From the NCBI RefSeq assembly GCF_000179575.2, contig NC_015636.1:1217495-1281494 (forward strand): a stretch of 64,000 nucleotides of DNA. The letters are read 5' to 3'. The notes below the pieces were generated by a model. It made no database searches. It worked only from the letters and a program-made list of their open reading frames with translations, and had not been told where the DNA came from. The DNA comes from Methanothermococcus okinawensis IH1. Lineage in GTDB: Archaea > AGJL01 > Methanococci > Methanococcales > Methanococcaceae. Each line of letters opens with the position of its first letter. Position 1 is the first letter of the stretch. The translations under genes and the position numbers were made by a program. This document shows, piece after piece, positions 42,241-54,117 of this stretch.

Positions 42241-43506
42241 TTATTGAAGTTTGACATAATATTTTAAATCATTATCTCCATTAGGAAATAATTCTGGATG
42301 AACCATTTTAGCGTAGTCTTCCATAGTTCCGATAGGGTCTTTTGCCTCCCATATATAGTAATCAGGTTTTGAAACATAGAATCTTCCAGTTTTATATGCT
42401 TTAAAGTTTTCAAAGCCTGAATTTGGATACCTATTTAGTAAATCCTGTTTTGTTTTTATATCCTTGCACTGTCTTAATATCACTACATCGGCATTTGAAG
42501 CCCTTTCCATAAATGTTTCAGTATCTATCTTTTCGGAGCCTGTTCCTGGCAAATCATTAAATGCATAATCTCCTCTAAAATTGTTTATTAATTTACTGTA
42601 ATAATTCTGTGCCTCTGGAATATATGGGGTGCTTGTATCGCTGTATTTCCAGAAATTAACAACTTTTGGGTATTCTTTTGCATTTCTTGTAATTCTTACC
42701 AATTTATTTTTCTTTTTCCATGATGTTTGGAAATAATCATTTGCTTTGTCATATGCCGTTTTACCCCATAATGCAGCAGCATATTTTGTCCATTCTATTT
42801 TTCCCAGAAATGTGGGCCCATCATAGGCAAAAGCCCTTGAAACAGTAATTCCTAACTCGTTCAATTTAGTTTCCATTTCGTCATGCTGTGACCATGCTCC
42901 TAATACTACAATATCAGGGCTTGTGTTGATTACCACATCATACTTCATAGTAGATGATGTGCCAATATTTGCAACTTTGCCTTCATTGTATCTTTTTGAG
43001 AGCTCAGGTGAATATTTCAAGACTGAACTCGAAACTCCTTTTATACTATCATAACATGAGGAATCGTTTAATATATCTGCTGTTGAAACGATTGGACAGT
43101 AAAATATGGTATCAATGCTTTTTACAGGAACTCTTAGTATCTTTGCACCTTGTATATTTGGTGCTGTTGCATTTTCATTTACTAAAACAAATTTATGTCC
43201 TTTTGAATCCACTACATAACAGTATCCTTCATCCCAGTGAGGGTCCAATTGGAAGTTTTTAGCAAATATAACAGGTTCTCTATATTTATCGTAGTTTTTG
43301 AATAGATATACAACATCTGCAATATCAATGGAATTATCGCAGTTTAAATCTCCATCTTCGATAGGCACATTTCTATGCTTGAATAGATATACAACATCTG
43401 CAATATCTATGGAACCATCTCCATTTATATCGCCTATCTCTGTTCCCATTACTGATGGAACTAGTGATATTAATGTCAAAATAGTAAGTGTTAATATTCT
43501 TTTCAT
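42241..43506 (-). CDS. Secreted solute-binding protein with N-terminal dockerin
   Basis: 421 residues. A signal peptide (MKRILTLTILTLISLVPSVMG) is followed at residues 24-72 by two dockerin repeats, GDINGDGSIDIADVVYLFKH and GDLNCDNSIDIADVVYLFKN, with the Ca2+-binding DxNxDGxxD pattern. The rest (about 75-421) resembles the class III solute-binding proteins for Fe-siderophores, haem or cobamides (BtuF/FepB fold): SPDIVVLGAWSQHDEMETKLNELGI and IEWTKYAAALWGKTAYDKANDYF. No lipobox or membrane anchor is present and no permease is nearby, so I infer attachment by cohesin binding. Ligand unknown. Confidence 0.85.
   Translation of the reverse strand: MKRILTLTILTLISLVPSVMGTEIGDINGDGSIDIADVVYLFKHRNVPIEDGDLNCDNSIDIADVVYLFKNYDKYREPVIFAKNFQLDPHWDEGYCYVVDSKGHKFVLVNENATAPNIQGAKILRVPVKSIDTIFYCPIVSTADILNDSSCYDSIKGVSSSVLKYSPELSKRYNEGKVANIGTSSTMKYDVVINTSPDIVVLGAWSQHDEMETKLNELGITVSRAFAYDGPTFLGKIEWTKYAAALWGKTAYDKANDYFQTSWKKKNKLVRITRNAKEYPKVVNFWKYSDTSTPYIPEAQNYYSKLINNFRGDYAFNDLPGTGSEKIDTETFMERASNADVVILRQCKDIKTKQDLLNRYPNSGFENFKAYKTGRFYVSKPDYYIWEAKDPIGTMEDYAKMVHPELFPNGDNDLKYYVKLQ
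43273..43436 (-). repeat. Dockerin-coding inverted repeat, left copy
   Basis: 164 bp encoding the two dockerin repeats, matching 47532-47695 in opposite orientation with only about two mismatches by eye. The genes differ outside this block, so the block seems homogenised by recombination. Confidence 0.9.
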
Positions 43507-43726
43507 GATAACACCTTTTTTATTTATTAATAATTAGTATTATATTATTACTAAAATGATAATATTATAAAAATAGTATTTAAAATTTACTACTTATTTT
43601 TAAATAATTATTATCATATAAATATTATAAAAGAAAATTGTAATAATTATAAAATAAAATTTAATATAAAAAATATAAAAGATAAATAATAAAATATTAC
43701 ATAAAATACATAAGGAATAAGTATAA

Positions 43727-45805
43727 TTATTTAATTTTAAATCTAATCAATATAAGCCCTATCATAAATCCAAATAGAGATACAAATGAATAATATGGAG
43801 CCATATAATTATCACTTGATGTTATGGTTTTATTTATAACATAATTTTTAACAGTCTTGACTTTATTTACTTTTAACACCACCTTTGTATTATTGAGTTT
43901 AATAATTTTTGTATAATTATTTACTTTTACTTGTGGTTTGGATGTGAATTCTATCTTTTTTTCAAAATTCCATTGGTAATATCCCATCTCAACATTATAT
44001 TTTCCATTATTTTTTATAGCAGGATAATACACAACATTCCAATTAATATTGCATGATTTTGATACATTTATAGGAATAATTAGTTTTTTTGTTTCATTTG
44101 GTTTTAATGTTATATTGTACTGGGTTTTTAAAGGAGTATAATCCTTATAATCTAAAAAATTGATATATCCATTAACATTATGGGTAAGTGGATTTCTTAA
44201 TGTCATATTTAAATAAACGGTTTTATTTTTATTATCGTCTGACAAGAAAGAATCTTTTGAAAAGGAATAATTCACCACATAATATTTTTTGAGTTCTATA
44301 ATAGTCACTACTTCATCTGTTCCATTTAATGGGTCTTTAACAGTGCATTTTATTTTATATGTTGAATAATTCGAATACCTATGGATTGGATTTTCATCTG
44401 TTGAATTTTGCCCATCTCCAAAATTCCATATATATTTTAAATCATCGTTATCTTCATCATAACTCAGTGCATAAAAATGGACTTCATTGTTATTAAATAT
44501 ATTATAGGCCATTTTTAATTTTGGTGGATGATTTGTTTTTCTTTTTACAATATCTATTGTCAAATTTTTAACAGTTAGGTTTATCTTTGTATTATTGGCA
44601 TATACCGATAGATTTTTAAGATATATTGTTGAAGAAATATTTTTATCCACCTTTGGGGATATTTTAAACTTTAAAATACTAAATGTTCCATTTGTTCCAT
44701 TTATGAGGGAAATATTTAAATATAGATAATTATTGTTTAAAGTAATATTTGATGTGTTTATCGTATTATATATGTCAGAATATTCTGGAATTCCATAATC
44801 TGAAACATCAAATAAGGAATTATTTATAAAAATATATCCTGAAATATTTGTTAAATTTTTGTCAATATTAAATACTTTTAATTTAATTTCTTTTGAATGA
44901 CCAAAAGTTATATTTGTTTTTTCATTATGTCCGGAATCTACATAGAATGCCAACCCTTTATACTCTGAGATATTTTCATGTTTTTCTTCCGTTTTTATTG
45001 TTATGTTCTTGATTTGCTCCCCATTTATCATTAAATCCACTGAAATATTATAGTTAGTATCATTAACATTAATGGGTATTTTTAAAAGATTAAATATGGT
45101 TTTATTTTCGTCCTTTTCATTTGGAATAATAAAAAATGAAATATTATTATTATGTTTTACATAGCTGAAATTATTACAAAATATATCTATTAGAGTAGGA
45201 TTATTTTCTATTGTTATGTTCTTGAATGAAATGATACCTGAAATATTCTTTATAGGAGTTTTTGCCCCAGTTATAGATAAAACTGCATCGATATTTTTAT
45301 TCAGTTCAAAATCTTTCAATGCAATGATTCCTAAAGTCTGGTTTAATGGATTTATTGTTATATTTGAGTTTTTTAAAGTTATATCATAATTTACACCATT
45401 TGCATCAGATACGGAAGTTTGAGTTAAATCCACTGAATCATTTCCATCCTTTAAAGCTTTAAATGATAGGGTTGCTATTGTGAAGTTTCCGTATGGGGGG
45501 TTATTAAACCATATTAAGCTTATTTTTCCCTTAGAAATATCCACTGTTTTTAGGCTAGCAGTATTGGATGTATTGCTTAATACAATATTTGTTAAATTTA
45601 AAAGATTAGTGTTATAATGTATTTTAGTTTCAAACCCAGCACATTTTTTATCAGAAGGAATATTTTTTACAACCAAATCTAAATTAATAGTATCTCCAAC
45701 ATTGGCTGATATATTATTTGGGGTTAACTCTACGGATACATTTTCACCAAATACACCAGATATAAGAATAAAAAAAGATAAAAATAATATTATTGCATAT
45801 TTCAT
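43727..45805 (-). CDS. Cohesin-like and PKD-domain surface protein with C-terminal membrane anchor
   Basis: 692 residues. Signal peptide, then a cohesin domain (about 22-152) starting NVSVELTPNNISANVGDTIN and ending in SVSDANGVNYDI; two more divergent cohesin-like beta regions (about 155-430); a PKD domain (about 432-515, YIWNFGDGQNSTDENPIHRY); another beta domain; and a C-terminal helix (YYSFVSLFGFMIGLILIRF) with basic end. Dozens of N-x-S/T sequons suggest heavy glycosylation. Its ATG overlaps the stop of the upstream gene by 4 bp. The first cohesin is close to that of the large scaffold, so it may bind the same dockerins. Confidence 0.82.
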   Translation of the reverse strand: MKYAIILFLSFFILISGVFGENVSVELTPNNISANVGDTINLDLVVKNIPSDKKCAGFETKIHYNTNLLNLTNIVLSNTSNTASLKTVDISKGKISLIWFNNPPYGNFTIATLSFKALKDGNDSVDLTQTSVSDANGVNYDITLKNSNITINPLNQTLGIIALKDFELNKNIDAVLSITGAKTPIKNISGIISFKNITIENNPTLIDIFCNNFSYVKHNNNISFFIIPNEKDENKTIFNLLKIPINVNDTNYNISVDLMINGEQIKNITIKTEEKHENISEYKGLAFYVDSGHNEKTNITFGHSKEIKLKVFNIDKNLTNISGYIFINNSLFDVSDYGIPEYSDIYNTINTSNITLNNNYLYLNISLINGTNGTFSILKFKISPKVDKNISSTIYLKNLSVYANNTKINLTVKNLTIDIVKRKTNHPPKLKMAYNIFNNNEVHFYALSYDEDNDDLKYIWNFGDGQNSTDENPIHRYSNYSTYKIKCTVKDPLNGTDEVVTIIELKKYYVVNYSFSKDSFLSDDNKNKTVYLNMTLRNPLTHNVNGYINFLDYKDYTPLKTQYNITLKPNETKKLIIPINVSKSCNINWNVVYYPAIKNNGKYNVEMGYYQWNFEKKIEFTSKPQVKVNNYTKIIKLNNTKVVLKVNKVKTVKNYVINKTITSSDNYMAPYYSFVSLFGFMIGLILIRFKIK

Positions 45806-46668
45806 AGTATCATCCTTCTAAATATTAATCCAAATATAATTCCAGATAATATACTCCCGATAAAAATAGATATCAATAAATTATAATTTAGACTACTTTT
45901 TCCATCACTGTTTATTATAACGGTTATATTTGGCTTCTCCTCCGAAATATTTACCTCTTTTACAATAATTTCAGGCATACTTTGGTTTGTAATGATATTT
46001 ATTTTATTAATTGTTGTTGATGAAGAGGATGAAACTGTATTTTCATTTAATTCTCCATTTAAATTAGTAGAACCTGTGTAATTTCCTGTTTTTTTAATAT
46101 TTACTGTGGCTCCATAAAATTTGGTGTCGGGGTAGGGCACTTTACTACCTGATTTTCCACCATAATCAATGTAATATTGGTTATGACTATCGTATTTAAT
46201 ACCATATTCGGAGCTCACCTTACCACTAACATTTAAGTTCGTTTTTCCCTTTTTAATTGGGTTAAATACTATTGTTCCTAAGTTTATACTACTGTCGTAT
46301 ATAGGTTCATCAAACATTATGGATAAAAAAAAAGTTCCATTTTCGAAGTGATATTCCTTTATCTTAACATCCTTATATTTATCGCTCCAATTAAAACCTA
46401 TGGGGCTTAAATAATCATTTGAATAATTTATGCAAATATCTACACCTTGACATCCTCCATCTTTTATTTTTGAGTCATCATAACCTGAGGGCATACCTAA
46501 ACTTTCCTTTGGAGGTATATTTTCAACTGTAATATTAAACTTTACCAAATTTCCATCTGTTTCTATATTATCAGGAGTTAATTTTATAACTACATCATTT
46601 AATGCGAAATTTTCAGAAATTAACATCAAAAAAAGGAGAGGAATAATTAATAATTTATTCACTTTCAT
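45802..46668 (-). CDS. Cohesin-like surface protein with C-terminal membrane anchor
   Basis: 288 residues: signal peptide, one cohesin-like domain (about 23-195; VIKLTPDNIETDGNLVKFNITVENIPP, ending SSEYGIKYD), a Ser/Thr/Asn-rich stalk and a C-terminal membrane helix (LISIFIGSILSGIIFGLIF followed by RRM). The membrane-stalk arrangement would display one cohesin near the membrane. Middle gene of a three-gene leftward operon, directly abutting the gene upstream. Confidence 0.75.
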   Translation of the reverse strand: MKVNKLLIIPLLFLMLISENFALNDVVIKLTPDNIETDGNLVKFNITVENIPPKESLGMPSGYDDSKIKDGGCQGVDICINYSNDYLSPIGFNWSDKYKDVKIKEYHFENGTFFLSIMFDEPIYDSSINLGTIVFNPIKKGKTNLNVSGKVSSEYGIKYDSHNQYYIDYGGKSGSKVPYPDTKFYGATVNIKKTGNYTGSTNLNGELNENTVSSSSSTTINKINIITNQSMPEIIVKEVNISEEKPNITVIINSDGKSSLNYNLLISIFIGSILSGIIFGLIFRRMIL

Positions 46669-47241
46669 TTAACCACCAAGTATAGATTTTAAGAAATTTG
46701 TTAGGGCATTAATTAAGGATGATAAAAAATTTCTATTAGAGGAGGATTGAATATCATTTCCATTATTGCTATTATTGATTATTAATAAATTAATAGTTTT
46801 TTCATCAACAGGTATCTTTTCTCCATTTTTGTCAGAGGCTACTGCTTCAAATGTAAGCGATAAATTACCGCTTTTTAATGCTACTGCTTTTATAGTCATT
46901 AAATGAAAATCTGAATTTAAAGGCTTGTTAAAACTGATAAATTTAATAGATACTGATGAATTTTTTTTATCAATACTATAAAATTTTCCTGCTTCTTTTT
47001 TTATCTTTTCATTTCCTTTGACATTTATTATTTTAATGTAGTTTTCTTTTCCAAAGGGGGGTTTCATTGCACATTCAAAACCTGTTATATTATTAGCCAT
47101 TGGATTGACATTTACATTAATGGTAAAATTATCTCCTTCATTGACTTTGCTTGGCATATCTACATTTAAATGGATATTGTTTGCCAATACAATAGGTGTG
47201 GATAATATACACATAATAATAAATAAAATTATTTTTTTCAT
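46669..47241 (-). CDS. Small secreted cohesin-like protein
   Basis: 190 residues: signal peptide (MKKIILFIIMCILSTPIVLA) and one cohesin-like domain (about 22-150; HLNVDMPSKVNEGDNFTINVNV, ending EAVASDKNGEKIP), then a short Asn/Ser linker and an amphipathic C-terminal helix (LSSLINALTNFLKSILGG) instead of an anchor. First gene of the cohesin operon, divergent from the second dockerin gene. Assignment to cohesin rests on fold pattern and context. Confidence 0.7.
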   Translation of the reverse strand: MKKIILFIIMCILSTPIVLANNIHLNVDMPSKVNEGDNFTINVNVNPMANNITGFECAMKPPFGKENYIKIINVKGNEKIKKEAGKFYSIDKKNSSVSIKFISFNKPLNSDFHLMTIKAVALKSGNLSLTFEAVASDKNGEKIPVDEKTINLLIINNSNNGNDIQSSSNRNFLSSLINALTNFLKSILGG

Positions 47242-47428
47242 ATACCATCACCATTTCATTACTATAATTCATAATGTCCAACCATGTAATAAACATATTT
47301 TTATATAATATAAATTAAACCGTAATCTATATATAATATATCATTATTAAATTTTTCTTGTATATAACTAATAATTAATATAGATGTAATTAATAATACT
47401 ACTTTAAAAACTTTTTGGGTGAATATGT
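47242..47428. promoter_or_regulatory. Divergent promoter region between cohesin operon and dockerin gene
   Basis: A leftward TATA candidate (TTTATATAATAT read on the plus strand near 47300-47312) and a rightward one (CTATATATAATATA near 47330-47343) lie in one 187-bp gap, so the dockerin protein and its putative cohesin partners may be controlled together. Confidence 0.45.
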
Positions 47429-48784
47429 ATGTCGAAAAATATAAATACTCATCCTATGATAATACTAAGTGTATTATCTTTATTAATATGCATAACTCCA
47501 TCATTTGCAGATGGAGATTACAACCACAGATTAGGCGATATAAATGGAGATGGTTCCATAGATATTGCAGATGTTGTATATCTATTCAAGCATAGAAATG
47601 TGCCTATTGAAGATGGAGATTTAAACTGCGATAATTCCATAGATATTGCAGATGTTGTATATCTATTCAAAAACTACGATAAATATAGAGAACCTATACA
47701 TTACGCTAACGATATAAAAATTACATACTACGACAGTAATGGAAATGAAGTAAATCCATACAATGGCGATTCATACGCTTATAAAATAGTTGAAGATGCC
47801 ACAGGGCAGAAATTCTTATTAAAAAATGCATCTCAATCTATACCTTCATGGGCAAATGGAAAATATGACAAAGTAATAAATGTTCCATTAAAAAATGTAG
47901 TTGTTATGAGCTCTACACATATAGCACTAATGGAACCATTAAATACTGATGGTTCAGTAATTGCTTCCGTTAAAGGAATTATGTGGGGCGGAAAATATAA
48001 ATGGTATTTCAAAGACATTGAAGAAGGTCTTAAAAATGGTTCAATAATCGATGTTGGTTCATCATACAGTCCAAATTATGATGAAATAATAAACATATCT
48101 CCACAGGTTGTATTTGTATATCCTGGATACAGTGGTAATGGTATTATTGCAAAATGTAAAGACTTGAATATAACCTATGTGGCTGATGCAGAATATTTGG
48201 AAGATTCATATCTTGCAAGATGTGAATGGGTTAAGATGTTTGCCGCATTCTACAATAAAGAAGATGTAGCAAATAAATACTTTACAAAAGTTGAAAAAAA
48301 GGCTTTGAATGTTAGAAGATTAACAAGAGGTAAAGAACCTGTTTCAGTTGCATGGGGTTCAAAGTCATCATGGGGAACTTATGTACCTAAGGCTCAATCC
48401 TATGTGGCTAAGGCAATAATGGATGATTGTCACGGAAATTATATATTCAGTGATTATCCTGGAACAGGTAGTACTAATATAGATTATGAAACATTTGCAG
48501 AAAGAGCAAAAAGTGCTGATGTTTGGGTTGTGCCGTCATCAACAACTTGGTTATCTTCATTCAAAGATAATAACCCAGGATATGATACCTTTAAATCAGT
48601 TCAGAATGGTAGAATATTCTGTATAAGCGGAGATTATTGGCAGTTAGGACTTATGAATACTGATGAAGTATTAATGGATTTAGGAACAATCATACACCCA
48701 GATGCCTTTAAAGGAAGAACAACACATTATTTCCTTAGGTATTATCCAAATAACAATACAGCAGTTCCATACACTGCAAATTAA
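47429..48784 (+). CDS. Secreted solute-binding protein with N-terminal dockerin (paralogue)
   Basis: 451 residues. Signal peptide (MIILSVLSLLICITPSFA), the same two dockerin repeats at about residues 36-84 (identical in protein sequence to the paralogue at 42241-43506), then a BtuF/FepB-like binding domain with SPQVVFVYPGYSGNGIIAKCKDLNI, ARCEWVKMFAAFYNKEDVANKYF and GNYIFSDYPGTGSTNIDYETFAERAKSADVW. Outside the dockerin the two proteins are clearly divergent, so they may bind different ligands. GGTGA lies 6 bases before the ATG. No anchor. Confidence 0.86.
   Translation: MSKNINTHPMIILSVLSLLICITPSFADGDYNHRLGDINGDGSIDIADVVYLFKHRNVPIEDGDLNCDNSIDIADVVYLFKNYDKYREPIHYANDIKITYYDSNGNEVNPYNGDSYAYKIVEDATGQKFLLKNASQSIPSWANGKYDKVINVPLKNVVVMSSTHIALMEPLNTDGSVIASVKGIMWGGKYKWYFKDIEEGLKNGSIIDVGSSYSPNYDEIINISPQVVFVYPGYSGNGIIAKCKDLNITYVADAEYLEDSYLARCEWVKMFAAFYNKEDVANKYFTKVEKKALNVRRLTRGKEPVSVAWGSKSSWGTYVPKAQSYVAKAIMDDCHGNYIFSDYPGTGSTNIDYETFAERAKSADVWVVPSSTTWLSSFKDNNPGYDTFKSVQNGRIFCISGDYWQLGLMNTDEVLMDLGTIIHPDAFKGRTTHYFLRYYPNNNTAVPYTAN
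47532..47695 (+). repeat. Dockerin-coding inverted repeat, right copy
   Basis: Partner of 43273-43436. The two copies face each other across about 4.1 kb that holds the three cohesin genes. Confidence 0.9.
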
Positions 48785-48867
48785 TATTAAATAATTATTA
48801 ATAAAATATTCTTTATTTCTTTTATTATTGATTTTTTATTATATGATATTATACCTGGTGATACCTT

Positions 48868-51800
48868 ATGAAGTGGAAGTTTTTTACACTCTCAGTTTTG
48901 ATGATTTCATTAATTGGGATGTGTTATGCAGAAAATGTATCCGTAGAGTTAATCCCAAATAATATATCAGCCAATGTTGGAGATACTATTAATTTAGATT
49001 TGATTGTAAAAAATGTGCCAGATAACTTAAAATGTGAAGGTTTTGAAACATATATTTATTATAATTCAAGTATGTTGAATATATCAAAGAACGATGTTGT
49101 TTTAAAAGATGTATCCGGAAGCATAAGCAAAGAAAATATAACTGTATCTAATGGAGAAATTTGGATTTCATTATGGTTTAGTAAAGATTTTTCAGGTAAT
49201 TTTACCATAGCAGCCTTATCATTTAAGGCATTAAATGAGGGAACTGGAAATGTATCACTCCACAATACTGTTGTATCTGATGCAAATGGACAGCATATTG
49301 AGGATAATCCTAACATATCATTAGTTCTTAAAAACTCAAATATGGATATAATTATCAAACCCATAGCTGATATAATAACTCCTAAAATTGCAAATAGTGA
49401 GCTCGGAGAGAATATAACTATTCCTATAATTATATCACCAAAAGAAAATGAAACTATAAATGAAATTTGTGGAACTTTAAGTTATGATAAAACAATAGTG
49501 AATCCTGTTAATTTATCATCAAGTGATGGAATAGTTTCATTTAATATATCAAATGGATTCTTTAAAATAGAAAATATTAATAAATCATCAAATTTCACAA
49601 TAAATGTCACTTATAATGTAATAAATGTAGGATCTACTGCAACTCAGTTAAGAGATGTTGCAATTAAAGATATTGAAAATTACAGTGTCGTTAAAAATTC
49701 TGATATTATAAATATTTACATCCCTGGACCGGATCTGGTAATTACTAATATCTCAATACCCTGCTTAAAATCATATCAAGACAATATAATACCAATCACT
49801 GTCAAAAATATTGGAGAAAGAAACATTTCAAATAATTTCACAGTTACATTATATATGGATGCTAATGAAATTGGTAAAAAGACAGTAAATGGATTAACTA
49901 TTGGAAAAACAAAAACTACAAACTTTACATTTATGCCTTTGGATAATAAAAACTACACCCTAGTTGCAGTTGTTGATTCATCTGGAAAAATAAAAGAAAC
50001 TAATGAAACCAATAATAAATATGTAAAAATTGTTGAAGCAGTTGAACAACCTATTTCACTAAACTTAGTTCCATCGACAAACTTAACAAAAACAGGCGAA
50101 ACATTTACAGTAGATATTAAATTGAACAACATAACTGATAAAAGACCTGCTAAGGGCATAGATGGAGTTTTAACTTATGATTCAAAAGTATTAAACTGCA
50201 CAAACTTTACATTCTCAATAAATGCATCAGAAAACCTTAAAAATATAACATTTAAAAATGGAAAGGTATTATTTAGTATAATGGATGGAAATATAACCAA
50301 ACCAACTGTTATAGGTAGAGCAACCTTTAAAGCAATAAATGTAGGTAACTCAAACATAGGATTAGAAAATGTCGTTGTTTCAGATATAAATGGATACAAA
50401 TTTAATAAGATATTTATATATCCAAAAACAATGACTGTTGAGGGTCCAGATGCGTATATTAAAAATATATCCGTTGAAAATCCATATTATTTAGAACCTG
50501 CAATAGTTAAAGTTGAAGTATCTAATAAAGGACATGCGGATTCAACAGAAACTTTTGATGTCCATTTATATGTGGATTCAAATGACTTAGGAACAAAAAC
50601 AGTAAATAATTTATCAATTGGAAAAACAAAAACCATATCATTTAATTGGATACCACAAGATAAAAAGAACTATACAATTGTAGCTTTAATAAATCCAACA
50701 GTTGATGAGAATGTATCAAATAATAAATTAGTTAAAAAAGTGATGATAGTTGAACAACCTATTTCATTAAACTTAGTTCCATCGACAAACTTAACAAAAA
50801 CAGGCGAAACATTTACAGTAGATATTAAATTGAACAACATAACTGATAAAAGACCTGCTAAGGGTATAGATGGAGTTTTAACTTATGATTCAAAAATATT
50901 GGAATGCACAAACGTTACATTCTCAATAAATGCATCAGAAAACCTTAAAAATATAACATTCGAAAATGGAAAGGTATTATTTAGCATAATGGATGGAAAT
51001 ATAACCAAACCAACTGTTATAGGTAAAGCAACCTTTAAAGCACTGGATGTTGGAAACTCAGAAATTGGATTATGTGGAGTTGCGGTATCGGATATAAACG
51101 GATACAAATTTAATAATGTAATTACTACTCCGAAAACTGTTGTAGTTCAAGGACCAAATATTAAAATTACAAGTATAGATGTTTCAAATCCATCATTATA
51201 CAGAGCACCTACTACAATAAATATAACAATAACCAATAATGGTCATCAGGATATTATAAACAAGTCATTTGATGTTCATTTATATGTAGATTCAAATGAT
51301 TTAGGAACAAAAACAGTAAATAATTTGTTAATTGGGGAAACAAAAACTTTATCATTTAATTGGACACCAACAGATATTAAAACATATACAGTTGTTGCAA
51401 TAGCAGATAAATTCAATGCTGTTAAAGAAGAAAACGAAAGCGATAATAAGTTGGTTAAGAAGGTGAATGTTGTTGAAGAACCTGTTTGGCTAAAATTATA
51501 CAACAGATCTGAATCTAATGGAACCATAACGGCATCTATTGATGTAGACTCCATAAATCCTAAAAGACCTTGCAGTGGTTATGACCTTGGCTTAACCTTA
51601 AAAAATGTTGAAATTTTAAATATAAGTGGAATTGGTACATGTTATTGGAATCTAACTAATGGCAGTTTATTTGTAAGTGGATACAACTTCTCAAAATCTG
51701 GAAAATTCAATATTGGAAATATAACATTTAAAGTTATTAATAAAAATGATACCTCTTACTTGATAATAAAACATGCAGTATTGTCAGATTGGAAGGGGTA

Positions 51801-52929
51801 TAAATTTAAGAGAATATTCCTAAACAATACAATTACAACTAAAACAATAAATGAAGCATTAAAATCCATTAATATGGATTCTAAAGTATGGAATCTAACT
51901 GAATTAGATAAGATAGATATAATCTCTGAAAGCTTTAATATAACAGTAGTTCCAATAGAAAATGATACTCTTAGAATACCTATCTTAGAAAATATATCCA
52001 TAAACCTTACTGAAGAAAATGTTGAGACTTTGGAAGAGGTTAAACAAAAAGCTACTGAATTTAACAATATTAAAATTGAAAATGAAAATGATATATATAA
52101 AATAATAAATAATACGGAAATCAAACCTATCGTAAATACAGGATTTAACATAACAAATATAACAAAGGAAACTAAAAAAGAAAACAATAAAGTGATATCT
52201 TCAATTAAATTTAATGTAACAAACACATCAACTAAGGGACTTTCGATAACAAGAATTCCAATAGGTCCTTTAAATGTTGAAGGTATAACTGTAAATAATG
52301 GAACAAAAAACATAACCTTAAAAGAAAATGATTATTCCAGTAAAATAGGATGGTATACAATACCAACTAAGGGGGTATTAGAAATAACCTTAGTTAAGGA
52401 CCCTGAAGTAAATGTTATATTATCTGCCACACTTCCATCAATAACTACAACATATTACAGTGGAGGTGGTGGAAGCCACCATATGACGATAAAAACTTAT
52501 TCAGATGTAGCACAAGATATTAAATCAGAAAAGATTAAAGAAATCGTTCATAACTACAAATTAATATTAGGTTCAGAAATTGACAATAACATGTCAGCAA
52601 AACATCTTAAAAACACATCAGAATTAATAAATAAACCATTGGAAATAAAAGAAGACTGTATATTAATAGGAGGTCCAGTAGCTAACCCATTGGTTAAAAA
52701 ATTCCTCTGGACATTCCCAGTTAAAGTAACAAATGATTACCCAGGAGCTCATATGGGAGTCATCCAAAAACAGATAATAAACGGACATAATGTAATATTA
52801 TTGGCAGGTTCAGATAGATACGGAACAAAAGCAGCAGTAGAATACTTTAAAACATTGGATGATATTCCATCAGAACCTATATTCGTAGAATGGAAAGATA
52901 ACAAAGCAATTAAAATAAATAAACCTTAA
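48868..52929 (+). CDS. Multi-cohesin S-layer scaffold protein
   Basis: 1353 residues. Order: signal peptide 1-21; cohesin 1 (22-162); divergent cohesin-like 2 (165-286); CARDB-like 1 (287-392); cohesin 3 (394-526); CARDB 2 (525-626); cohesin 4 (630-761); CARDB 3 (762-870); cohesin-like 5 (872-995); a mostly helical linker; a beta domain; a GGGGS hinge near 1199; and a C-terminal S-layer domain (ILIGGPVANPLVKKF; LAGSDRYGTKAAVEYFK). Methanococcal S-layer proteins share this C-terminus, so the scaffold should be embedded in the cell wall. Many N-glycosylation sequons. GGTGATACC precedes the ATG. I infer that it holds dockerin-tagged solute-binding proteins. Confidence 0.85.
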   Translation: MKWKFFTLSVLMISLIGMCYAENVSVELIPNNISANVGDTINLDLIVKNVPDNLKCEGFETYIYYNSSMLNISKNDVVLKDVSGSISKENITVSNGEIWISLWFSKDFSGNFTIAALSFKALNEGTGNVSLHNTVVSDANGQHIEDNPNISLVLKNSNMDIIIKPIADIITPKIANSELGENITIPIIISPKENETINEICGTLSYDKTIVNPVNLSSSDGIVSFNISNGFFKIENINKSSNFTINVTYNVINVGSTATQLRDVAIKDIENYSVVKNSDIINIYIPGPDLVITNISIPCLKSYQDNIIPITVKNIGERNISNNFTVTLYMDANEIGKKTVNGLTIGKTKTTNFTFMPLDNKNYTLVAVVDSSGKIKETNETNNKYVKIVEAVEQPISLNLVPSTNLTKTGETFTVDIKLNNITDKRPAKGIDGVLTYDSKVLNCTNFTFSINASENLKNITFKNGKVLFSIMDGNITKPTVIGRATFKAINVGNSNIGLENVVVSDINGYKFNKIFIYPKTMTVEGPDAYIKNISVENPYYLEPAIVKVEVSNKGHADSTETFDVHLYVDSNDLGTKTVNNLSIGKTKTISFNWIPQDKKNYTIVALINPTVDENVSNNKLVKKVMIVEQPISLNLVPSTNLTKTGETFTVDIKLNNITDKRPAKGIDGVLTYDSKILECTNVTFSINASENLKNITFENGKVLFSIMDGNITKPTVIGKATFKALDVGNSEIGLCGVAVSDINGYKFNNVITTPKTVVVQGPNIKITSIDVSNPSLYRAPTTINITITNNGHQDIINKSFDVHLYVDSNDLGTKTVNNLLIGETKTLSFNWTPTDIKTYTVVAIADKFNAVKEENESDNKLVKKVNVVEEPVWLKLYNRSESNGTITASIDVDSINPKRPCSGYDLGLTLKNVEILNISGIGTCYWNLTNGSLFVSGYNFSKSGKFNIGNITFKVINKNDTSYLIIKHAVLSDWKGYKFKRIFLNNTITTKTINEALKSINMDSKVWNLTELDKIDIISESFNITVVPIENDTLRIPILENISINLTEENVETLEEVKQKATEFNNIKIENENDIYKIINNTEIKPIVNTGFNITNITKETKKENNKVISSIKFNVTNTSTKGLSITRIPIGPLNVEGITVNNGTKNITLKENDYSSKIGWYTIPTKGVLEITLVKDPEVNVILSATLPSITTTYYSGGGGSHHMTIKTYSDVAQDIKSEKIKEIVHNYKLILGSEIDNNMSAKHLKNTSELINKPLEIKEDCILIGGPVANPLVKKFLWTFPVKVTNDYPGAHMGVIQKQIINGHNVILLAGSDRYGTKAAVEYFKTLDDIPSEPIFVEWKDNKAIKINKP
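50041..51470 (+). repeat. Internal duplication in the scaffold gene
   Basis: Cohesin 3 (from 50041) and cohesin 4 (from 50749) are about 90 percent identical at DNA level with a 708-bp period. The CARDB units at about 50553 and 51269 are also close, with a period of about 714 bp. A recent in-gene duplication of a cohesin-CARDB module explains this. Confidence 0.85.
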
Positions 52930-52972: not shown

Positions 52973-54117
52973 TTACGGTATTCCTCTCTTTATTAGTTCT
53001 TTACTACACGATTTAACCACTTCATAAAATGATAAACCATATTTATGGCTTAAATATTCTATGCAATTTGAAACTATTGCTAAAAATCTAATAAACCCTA
53101 TATTACTATTTTTAGATGTTAAATAGTTCCCTTCAATTTTTAAAACTGATTTATCCCTTTGATGCTTTTCTTCTATCATAGGTCTCTTGATATATTCCCC
53201 TATTATATTTTCTGCCTTCTTTTTATGGTCTATACATACCAAATACTTGGGTTCCTCCTGGTTTCGAAGCGAATCTGAAAGATTCGCTGACTTACAAAAA
53301 CCCCTTGGGTTTTTGTTAAGTTTCATTAGCACTGCAACGATTTTAACCCTACCTACATTAGGGATATTAACCACTTTATGATATAGTTTAACTTCTGTTT
53401 CGTTAATTGTCCTTAATTTAAACTTATTTTCTTCCAAATCCTTCTTAAATAGTTTTTCTATTTGGACTTTCTTACCAAAATACTCAACTATGATGTTTTT
53501 CTTAATTTTCCCAATGTAACATAGACCCAATTTCTTAGACTCCTTCATAACATCCTTTGTAGTTATAAAAGCGTCTCCTATTACCGTCCTGATATCGGTG
53601 TTGGATAAGAACCCAAGAATATCTATAAATATATTTGTAGATTTTTTGTTTAAAGGTTTTGTTGTAGTATAAATTGAGTATATCCCTTTTTATTATGATA
53701 AATACAGCAATTTATTTGTTCTTGATATAATTTTCTATTGTTCTTCGATGTAATTATATCTAATAATACATCCATAAACCTTTTCACTCCATCTCCTTAT
53801 GAATGTTGAATCAATTATTGCAGTGAATCTAAACCTTTTATCATTCAAGATATCGGGAAGGCTTGCTAATTGGTTATATACGCAAATCTCATTTTTTGAT
53901 AGTTTTTGAATGTTTTTGATGATGGTAGTTCTGTGGATTTTTGAAATACTCTCTGAAAATGCTTTAATGGTCTTTATTGGGGTTAGCACTCTAACCTGTG
54001 CAAACCTGGATAACTCATCTGAACAGTTAAATCCTAAACTATTTATAGAATTAGTGAGTACATTATTAAGTGTTTCTAACCTGTTATCACTAAACTTTTT
54101 TATTTGAGTATGTTCCT
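52973..54117 (-). pseudogene. Broken DDE (IS4-like) transposase
   Basis: An N-terminal piece (53735-53989, with the first catalytic Asp in IIDSTFIRRW) and a C-terminal piece (52973-53548, with HKKKAENIIGEYIKRPMIEEKHQRD holding the likely Glu) are in one frame but separated by TAG and two TAA codons. Between them, homology-like sequence (RKLYQEQINCC) is in the +1 frame, then VIGDAF with the second Asp is back in the first frame, so at least two frameshifts occurred. No start codon is visible upstream of 53989. The C-terminal piece also has a palindromic in-frame insertion at 53262-53320. Confidence 0.8.
53262..53320. repeat. Double-hairpin insertion within the transposase
   Basis: AGCGAATC/GATTCGCT (53268-53275, 53281-53288) and ACAAAAACCC/GGGTTTTTGT (53294-53303, 53307-53316) lie side by side. 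The segment keeps the frame open and adds about 20 residues to a poorly conserved site. Its two-hairpin layout resembles the insert upstream of ksgA at 11700-11760. Confidence 0.6.

Follow-up and report, generated by a model that had tools for sequence, protein, structure and literature searches.

The window analyzed here is a stretch of 64,000 nucleotides from the genome of the methanogen Methanothermococcus okinawensis IH1 (contig NC_015636.1, positions 1,217,495 to 1,281,494), which between window positions 42241 and 52929 harbors a cluster of genes for solute-binding proteins (SBPs) bearing dockerins and for proteins bearing cohesins. This cluster is probably the outer part of an ATP-binding cassette (ABC) importer of the BtuCD/FecCD type, in which bonds between cohesins and dockerins anchor the SBPs to the cell surface, i.e., the dockerin replaces a lipid anchor and its sockets are found on membrane proteins and on a protein that is probably tied to the surface layer (S-layer). 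The source genome (G000) comprises two contigs with 1,677,455 bases in all, the larger of 1,662,525 bases. Comparisons were made across 36 genomes of Methanococcales, and a phylum-wide search yielded these same 36 again. The cluster is kept in five genera and both families of the order, which argues against a chance arrangement, and a scan of named genomes gave matches only in records of Methanothermococcus and Methanocaldococcaceae and in one archaeon bin.

The two SBPs of the cluster, SBP1 (421 residues, 42241..43506, minus strand, with a signal peptide read from the sequence) and SBP2 (451 residues, 47429..48784, plus strand), are secreted proteins with a Peripla_BP_2 domain (2.2e-15 and 1e-20, respectively). 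An AlphaFold2 model of SBP2 (predicted local distance difference test score, pLDDT, 83.8) matches CeuE, HtsA, BtuF and haem SBPs in Foldseek with E-values of ~1e-12. The domain and the class III SBP fold place these proteins in the FecB/BtuF class (PF01497), in agreement with a previous sequence-only reading of this DNA, which had assigned them to the Fe-siderophore, haem or cobamide class. The dockerin is N-terminal and follows the signal peptide either immediately or after a few residues (residues 25-74 in SBP1, 43285..43434, minus strand; residues 36-85 in SBP2, 47534..47683, plus strand). Because Pfam alone misses these dockerins (0.03 and 0.0013, i.e., below the cut-off) as well as one of the cohesins described below, clade profiles and a structure model were used. 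The dockerin profile (A2), built from 13 relatives, detects both dockerins at 3e-32 and matches solved dockerins (2ccl_B, 1.6e-5; 4fl4_A, 2e-5; 1ohz_B, 1e-4; also 1daq and 5lxv_B, the latter matched by the SBP1 dockerin at 3e-4). Both EF-hand loops display the canonical DxNxDxxxDxxD pattern with D/N positions that are invariant or nearly so in A2, and the two duplicated F-hand repeats with this Ca2+ loop are those of a type I dockerin.

A scan for lipoboxes and transmembrane segments found neither a lipobox nor a C-terminal membrane helix in any of the dockerin SBPs, i.e., none carries the cysteine that follows the signal peptide in archaeal lipoproteins, and the earlier description of two secreted, anchorless SBPs with paired dockerins was thus borne out. 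Lipid anchoring is available in the source genome, as seen from another SBP that has a lipobox (L015 396-1469). All four FecB-class (Peripla_BP_2) proteins of this genome carry a dockerin of the SBP1/SBP2 type. The fourth of these genes is split by an in-frame TAG (L015 4953-6257; G000:C2:956952-958256), and its signal and dockerin region is identical in DNA to that of the neighboring copy.

Cohesins, sought with a clade profile (A1), and SBP-type dockerins were each found in 25 of the 36 genomes. Both are present in 24 genomes and both absent from 10, while one genome has a cohesin alone and one a dockerin alone, such that the two features agree in 34/36 genomes (Fisher p=5e-7, a value that is overstated since kinship is uncorrected). 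In the cohesin-only genome (G027), the contig ends within the SBP gene. Nearly all A2 matches fall in SBP genes or fragments thereof. In five Methanocaldococcus genomes (G002, G004, G007, G008 and G014), which belong to a lineage that we take to include M. jannaschii, the SBP orthologs have a lipobox and no dockerin, and the genomes have no cohesin. In a tree of 53 SBPs (root not fixed), the lipobox proteins form a single clade within each SBP family, with a support of 100/100 for that of SBP1 (four rows) and 100/99 for that of SBP2 (five rows), and both clades nest among dockerin forms. The simplest history would be that both paralogs switched to a lipobox in one lineage upon loss of the cohesins.

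Three cohesin genes reside between SBP1 and SBP2, and the gene of a scaffoldin is found directly 3' of SBP2. The first of the three encodes 692 residues (43727..45805, minus strand; Pfam cohesin 9.9e-10) with a PKD domain (9e-12), a first cohesin (45395..45712, minus strand; clade profile 8e-39), a weaker second one (residues 298-403) and a C-terminal membrane helix (hydropathy 1.9). The 288-residue protein (45802..46668, minus strand; clade profile 4e-26), with a cohesin at residues 39-154 (46207-46554, minus strand) and a C-terminal membrane helix at residues 262-287, has no match in Pfam and hence none to PF00963, for which both the 692-residue protein and the scaffoldin score above the cut-off. 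The top 47 PDB matches of its AlphaFold2 model (pLDDT 73, beta domain >80) are all cohesins (best E-value 8.5e-8), i.e., the protein is predicted to adopt the nine-stranded jelly-roll fold of a cohesin. The 190-residue protein (46669..47241, minus strand; cohesin at residues 31-140) reaches 0.046 in Pfam and 1e-27 with the clade profile, and its orthologs in G013 and G023 exceed the Pfam cut-off. The A1 profile detected 31 PDB sequences (best 2.6e-12). Cohesins or scaffoldins account for 30 of these, the Archaeoglobus cohesin 2xdh among them; a later cohesin profile was grown from iterated hits, and the E-values of the 190- and 288-residue types are therefore not independent. All four proteins that had been proposed from the sequence to carry cohesins, three of them encoded by adjacent genes, thus match by profile or structure.

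The scaffoldin (1353 residues, 48868..52929, plus strand) contains five cohesins, located with profiles built in this work at residues 33-141, 178-270, 405-509, 641-745 and 883-977, of which three are detected by Pfam (2e-13) and two more by the clade profile (cohesin 1 is at 48964..49290, plus strand). It also harbors three CARDB domains (6e-46) at residues 292-388, 531-625 and 767-866. These domains were as had been predicted, while of the S-layer domain expected at the end of the protein only the C-terminal part is present: residues 1211-1353 (143 residues; 52498..52926, plus strand) are homologous to the C-terminal part of S_layer_C (PF05124; 9e-11, profile positions 107-172 only), and the scaffoldin has no S_layer_N, which together with a whole S_layer_C marks a methanococcal S-layer protein. 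The S-layer protein of the genome (C2:579-581 kb, L196) has a complete S_layer_C around S_layer_N. A module of the scaffoldin type also ends two more proteins of the source genome (L014 4239-5480 and L188 1278-2225), and its homology identifies it as a surface module akin to the S-layer protein. The length of the scaffoldin varies widely among genomes, and in one relative (L080, 2766-6428) consecutive cohesin-CARDB units have near-identical scores, which suggests that this pair of domains was recently duplicated in tandem.

Plug and sockets show signs of concerted evolution. A tract common to SBP1 and SBP2 (43273..43434, minus strand, vs 47534-47695) is identical at 160/162 nucleotides with background similarity on both flanks, and outside of the dockerin the two proteins are ~31% identical. 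In G000, G013 and G033, which stand for three lineages, the two dockerins are identical as proteins and 98.6-99.3% identical in DNA, and on either side the match breaks off no more than a few codons from the dockerin edge. On average, the dockerins of SBP1 and SBP2 are 88% identical within genomes compared with 72% between genomes; in G005, G034 and others they are not homogenized. An inversion between the inverted dockerin copies was considered as a cause of the identity and rejected; gene conversion is preferred because L075 and L084 share one unchanged gene order. The sockets behave similarly: cohesin 1 of the 692-residue type and cohesin 1 of the scaffoldin are on average 66% identical within genomes and 48% between, with near-identical DNA in G003 (223/240), G013 (322/329), G023 (293/322), G029 (314/334) and G030 (359/367). 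One contig of 3,846 bases (L092, G029:C43) has both of its ends at the same residue inside the homogenized cohesin 1, of the membrane protein at one end and of the scaffoldin at the other, where the assembly was apparently broken by the repeat. Should both plug and sockets be held uniform in this way, the most straightforward interpretation is that every SBP is meant to fit both the membrane sockets and those of the scaffoldin. The recognition dipeptide (loop positions 10-11) is the same in both repeats of 37/44 dockerins, where 24.5 would be expected from independent draw, a match that is given little weight since the sequences are related and mostly IA/IA; the dipeptide differs between SBP1 and SBP2 in some genomes (G022, G032).

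The source genome has a single FecCD permease pair (C2:828-830 kb) with an adjoining ATPase and no SBP, in a locus (C2:827-830 kb) apart from the cohesin/SBP cluster. In many relatives (L075-L081, L089, L098 and L102-L105) the FecCD pair and/or the ATPase are found in or beside the cluster, i.e., the linkage to permease and ATPase that is typical of FecB/BtuF-class proteins is seen through these relatives. The ATPase is closest to models of FecE and the corrinoid transporter BtuD, and the permease to BtuC/FecC. Genes for CobN, a NifH-like reductase and a CbiR-like protein occur near the cluster in several genomes, and they hint at a corrinoid or other tetrapyrrole as ligand as much as at iron. 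Near the dockerin SBPs in L082, L083, L093 and L102 a CobN-type chelatase (TIGR02257 above the cut-off in L082) is accompanied by a small 4Fe-4S protein, with nitrogenase-like and CbiR-like genes close by in some of these loci; such neighbors are a possible clue to a tetrapyrrole as ligand of the SBPs. A Pfam scan of the cluster proteins, made without a genome-wide scan for carbohydrate-active enzymes, detected no CAZy domain, as the sequence-only reading had stated. The cargo consists of SBPs instead of the dockerin-bearing polysaccharide-degrading enzymes that define a cellulosome.

Taken together, these data are best explained by a mechanism where the exported SBPs, having no anchor of their own, would be held at the surface by cohesin-dockerin bonds rather than by lipid. 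The N-terminal dockerins, with two EF-hand loops that are presumably loaded with Ca2+, would plug into two kinds of cohesin: one or a few on membrane proteins near the permease (the 692- and 288-residue proteins, and in relatives the 190-residue type), and those of the five-cohesin scaffoldin, which is probably tied to the S-layer. A captured metal chelate, or a corrinoid or other tetrapyrrole, would then be passed on to the one FecCD permease with its ATPase. Several points weigh against this explanation. In G015, a complete genome, a dockerin SBP is present and no cohesin was detected. The lipobox exchange is confined to one lineage and may thus be a single historical event, and its direction hinges on the root of the tree, the reverse being conceivable. 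Cohesins 2 and 5 of the scaffoldin are divergent and may not bind. Finally, the probable attachment of the scaffoldin to the S-layer is inferred from a partial domain match, to just the C-terminal part of the outer domain.

A more specific proposal is that the two kinds of socket form a two-tier relay, where one interchangeable dockerin tag docks the SBPs on S-layer cohesins for capture at the outside and, for delivery, on those of the membrane next to the permease, while gene conversion keeps the tag nearly identical among the SBPs of a genome and the two cohesin tiers alike. We regard this relay as a tentative possibility; if true, it would be a nutrient conveyor that spans the archaeal pseudo-periplasm and is made of cellulosome parts. 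A less probable alternative to the main explanation is anchoring at the membrane only, in which the SBPs dock on the membrane cohesins next to the permease while the scaffoldin has a different function, e.g., in adhesion or as an accessory of the S-layer. In the complete Methanocaldococcus genomes G005 and G006 the SBPs have dockerins, no scaffoldin was detected, and the sole cohesin is of the 190-residue type, which in this genus has a strong C-terminal membrane helix; hence, a membrane tier of cohesins can apparently suffice. Together with the C-terminal helices of the 692- and 288-residue proteins, these genomes suggest that membrane anchoring may be the core of the system. In most genomes, however, the scaffoldin gene follows SBP2 immediately, and in several its cohesin 1 is homogenized with that of the membrane protein, which suggests the same partner. 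The tethering to the cell wall that had been proposed from the sequence is therefore retained in part: the exchange of anchors, the co-occurrence and the importer genes support docking well, while the membrane helices and G005/G006 indicate that the S-layer is not the sole anchor.

The SBPs could instead be shed, like haemophores, to collect chelates and return by docking to the surface cohesins, as might be expected of proteins with no anchor of their own of which there are four for one permease pair; yet the SBPs of relatives without cohesins are lipid-anchored rather than free, which suggests selection for retention and renders this scenario improbable. Slightly less probable still is that the cohesin/CARDB/PKD proteins are adhesins for which the SBPs are one of many cargoes and which perhaps grip metal-bearing surfaces. 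Adhesins often contain CARDB and PKD domains, and the source genome has another dockerin and further cohesins, but the SBP-type dockerin is essentially limited to SBPs in this clade and the cluster genes are found with the permease and ATPase. That the dockerin-like EF hands have no partner and just stabilize the SBP or bind Ca2+, with a co-occurrence due to shared ancestry within the single order to which all of the genomes belong, is very improbable given the joint absence of dockerin and cohesin, the lipobox in place of the dockerin in both paralogs, and the homogenization of the dockerins apart from the SBP bodies.

The use of dockerins for nutrient capture is not new in principle, although the sequence-only reading knew of no description. 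In anaerobic methanotrophic (ANME) archaea, dockerins are common on SBPs of ABC transporters (NikA/OppA and TroA), proteins with up to five cohesins are found, and ANME-2c has S-layer-plus-dockerin proteins; attachment to the outer layer has been suggested (Chadwick et al. 2022, PMC9012536). A survey from 2017 referred to the function of such cohesin and dockerin proteins as unknown (PMC5244752). The search of the open literature (subscription papers were outside its scope) found no paper on dockerins in Methanococcales, and proteomics papers on M. voltae with iron or pyrite do not mention them. The ANME system resembles that described here in its dockerin SBPs, in the number of cohesins per protein, in the link to S-layer domains and in that it is not a cellulosome. 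In ANME, however, the SBPs are of the NikA/OppA and TroA types instead of FecB/BtuF, the multi-cohesin proteins have a dockerin as well, and it is dockerin proteins that carry the S-layer domain. Here, the S-layer module is at the end of the scaffoldin, and the genes for cohesins, SBPs, permease and ATPase make up a conserved group. Bacterial cellulosomes share the dockerin and cohesin modules, a scaffoldin with many cohesins and attachment to the cell surface, but here the cargo is a transporter SBP, the cluster has no glycoside hydrolase and the S-layer module is of the methanococcal type rather than SLH. The non-cellulosomal cohesin of Archaeoglobus fulgidus (PDB 2xdh) has the archaeal cohesin fold matched by both profile and model; we know of no importer context or comparable scaffoldin with many cohesins for it. 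The lipid-anchored FecB-class SBPs of Methanocaldococcus (e.g., G004) are orthologous and have the same permease and ATPase families, with a lipobox cysteine where the dockerin would be and no cohesins in the genome. BtuCDF and FecBCDE importers share with this system the SBP fold, a FecCD permease and a FecE/BtuD-like ATPase; the difference is that here the SBP would be held by a protein-protein plug and not by the periplasm or lipid.

Novel features are thus the class of the SBPs, the compact grouping of the genes with those of an importer, the scaffoldin with an S-layer module of its own, the exchange of dockerin and lipobox, and the homogenization. The exchange makes visible one clear role for cohesins and dockerins outside cellulosomes, i.e., an SBP anchor that is interchangeable with a lipid anchor. 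To our knowledge, concerted evolution of a dockerin apart from its cargo has not been described outside cellulosomes, and plug homogenization offers a rule for spotting sets of partners. Because Methanococcales include genetically tractable Methanococcus species, the anchoring role is directly testable, and thermostable dockerin-cohesin pairs from hyperthermophiles could serve as modules.

Just 3' of the scaffoldin, the window has a transposase-like fragment (52973-53548, a weak IS701/IS4 match) with a short open reading frame (ORF) beside it (53735-53989). A second cohesin/dockerin group of the source genome (L014, G000:C2:484000-503000) encodes a 1751-residue protein with PKD, CARDB and TED/complement-like domains, whose C-terminal type I dockerin belongs to a different sequence type (VDAGDAIKILRYDAG). 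Beside it are an ORF of 501 residues with a cohesin and three CARDB domains and an ORF of 413 residues with an S-layer module, which may be a single broken scaffoldin gene. Elsewhere (L188 3163-6959; G000:C2:1658662-1662458), short ORFs in shifting frames with matches to a C25-peptidase propeptide, a NosD beta-helix, CARDB and cohesin look like a decayed large surface protein.

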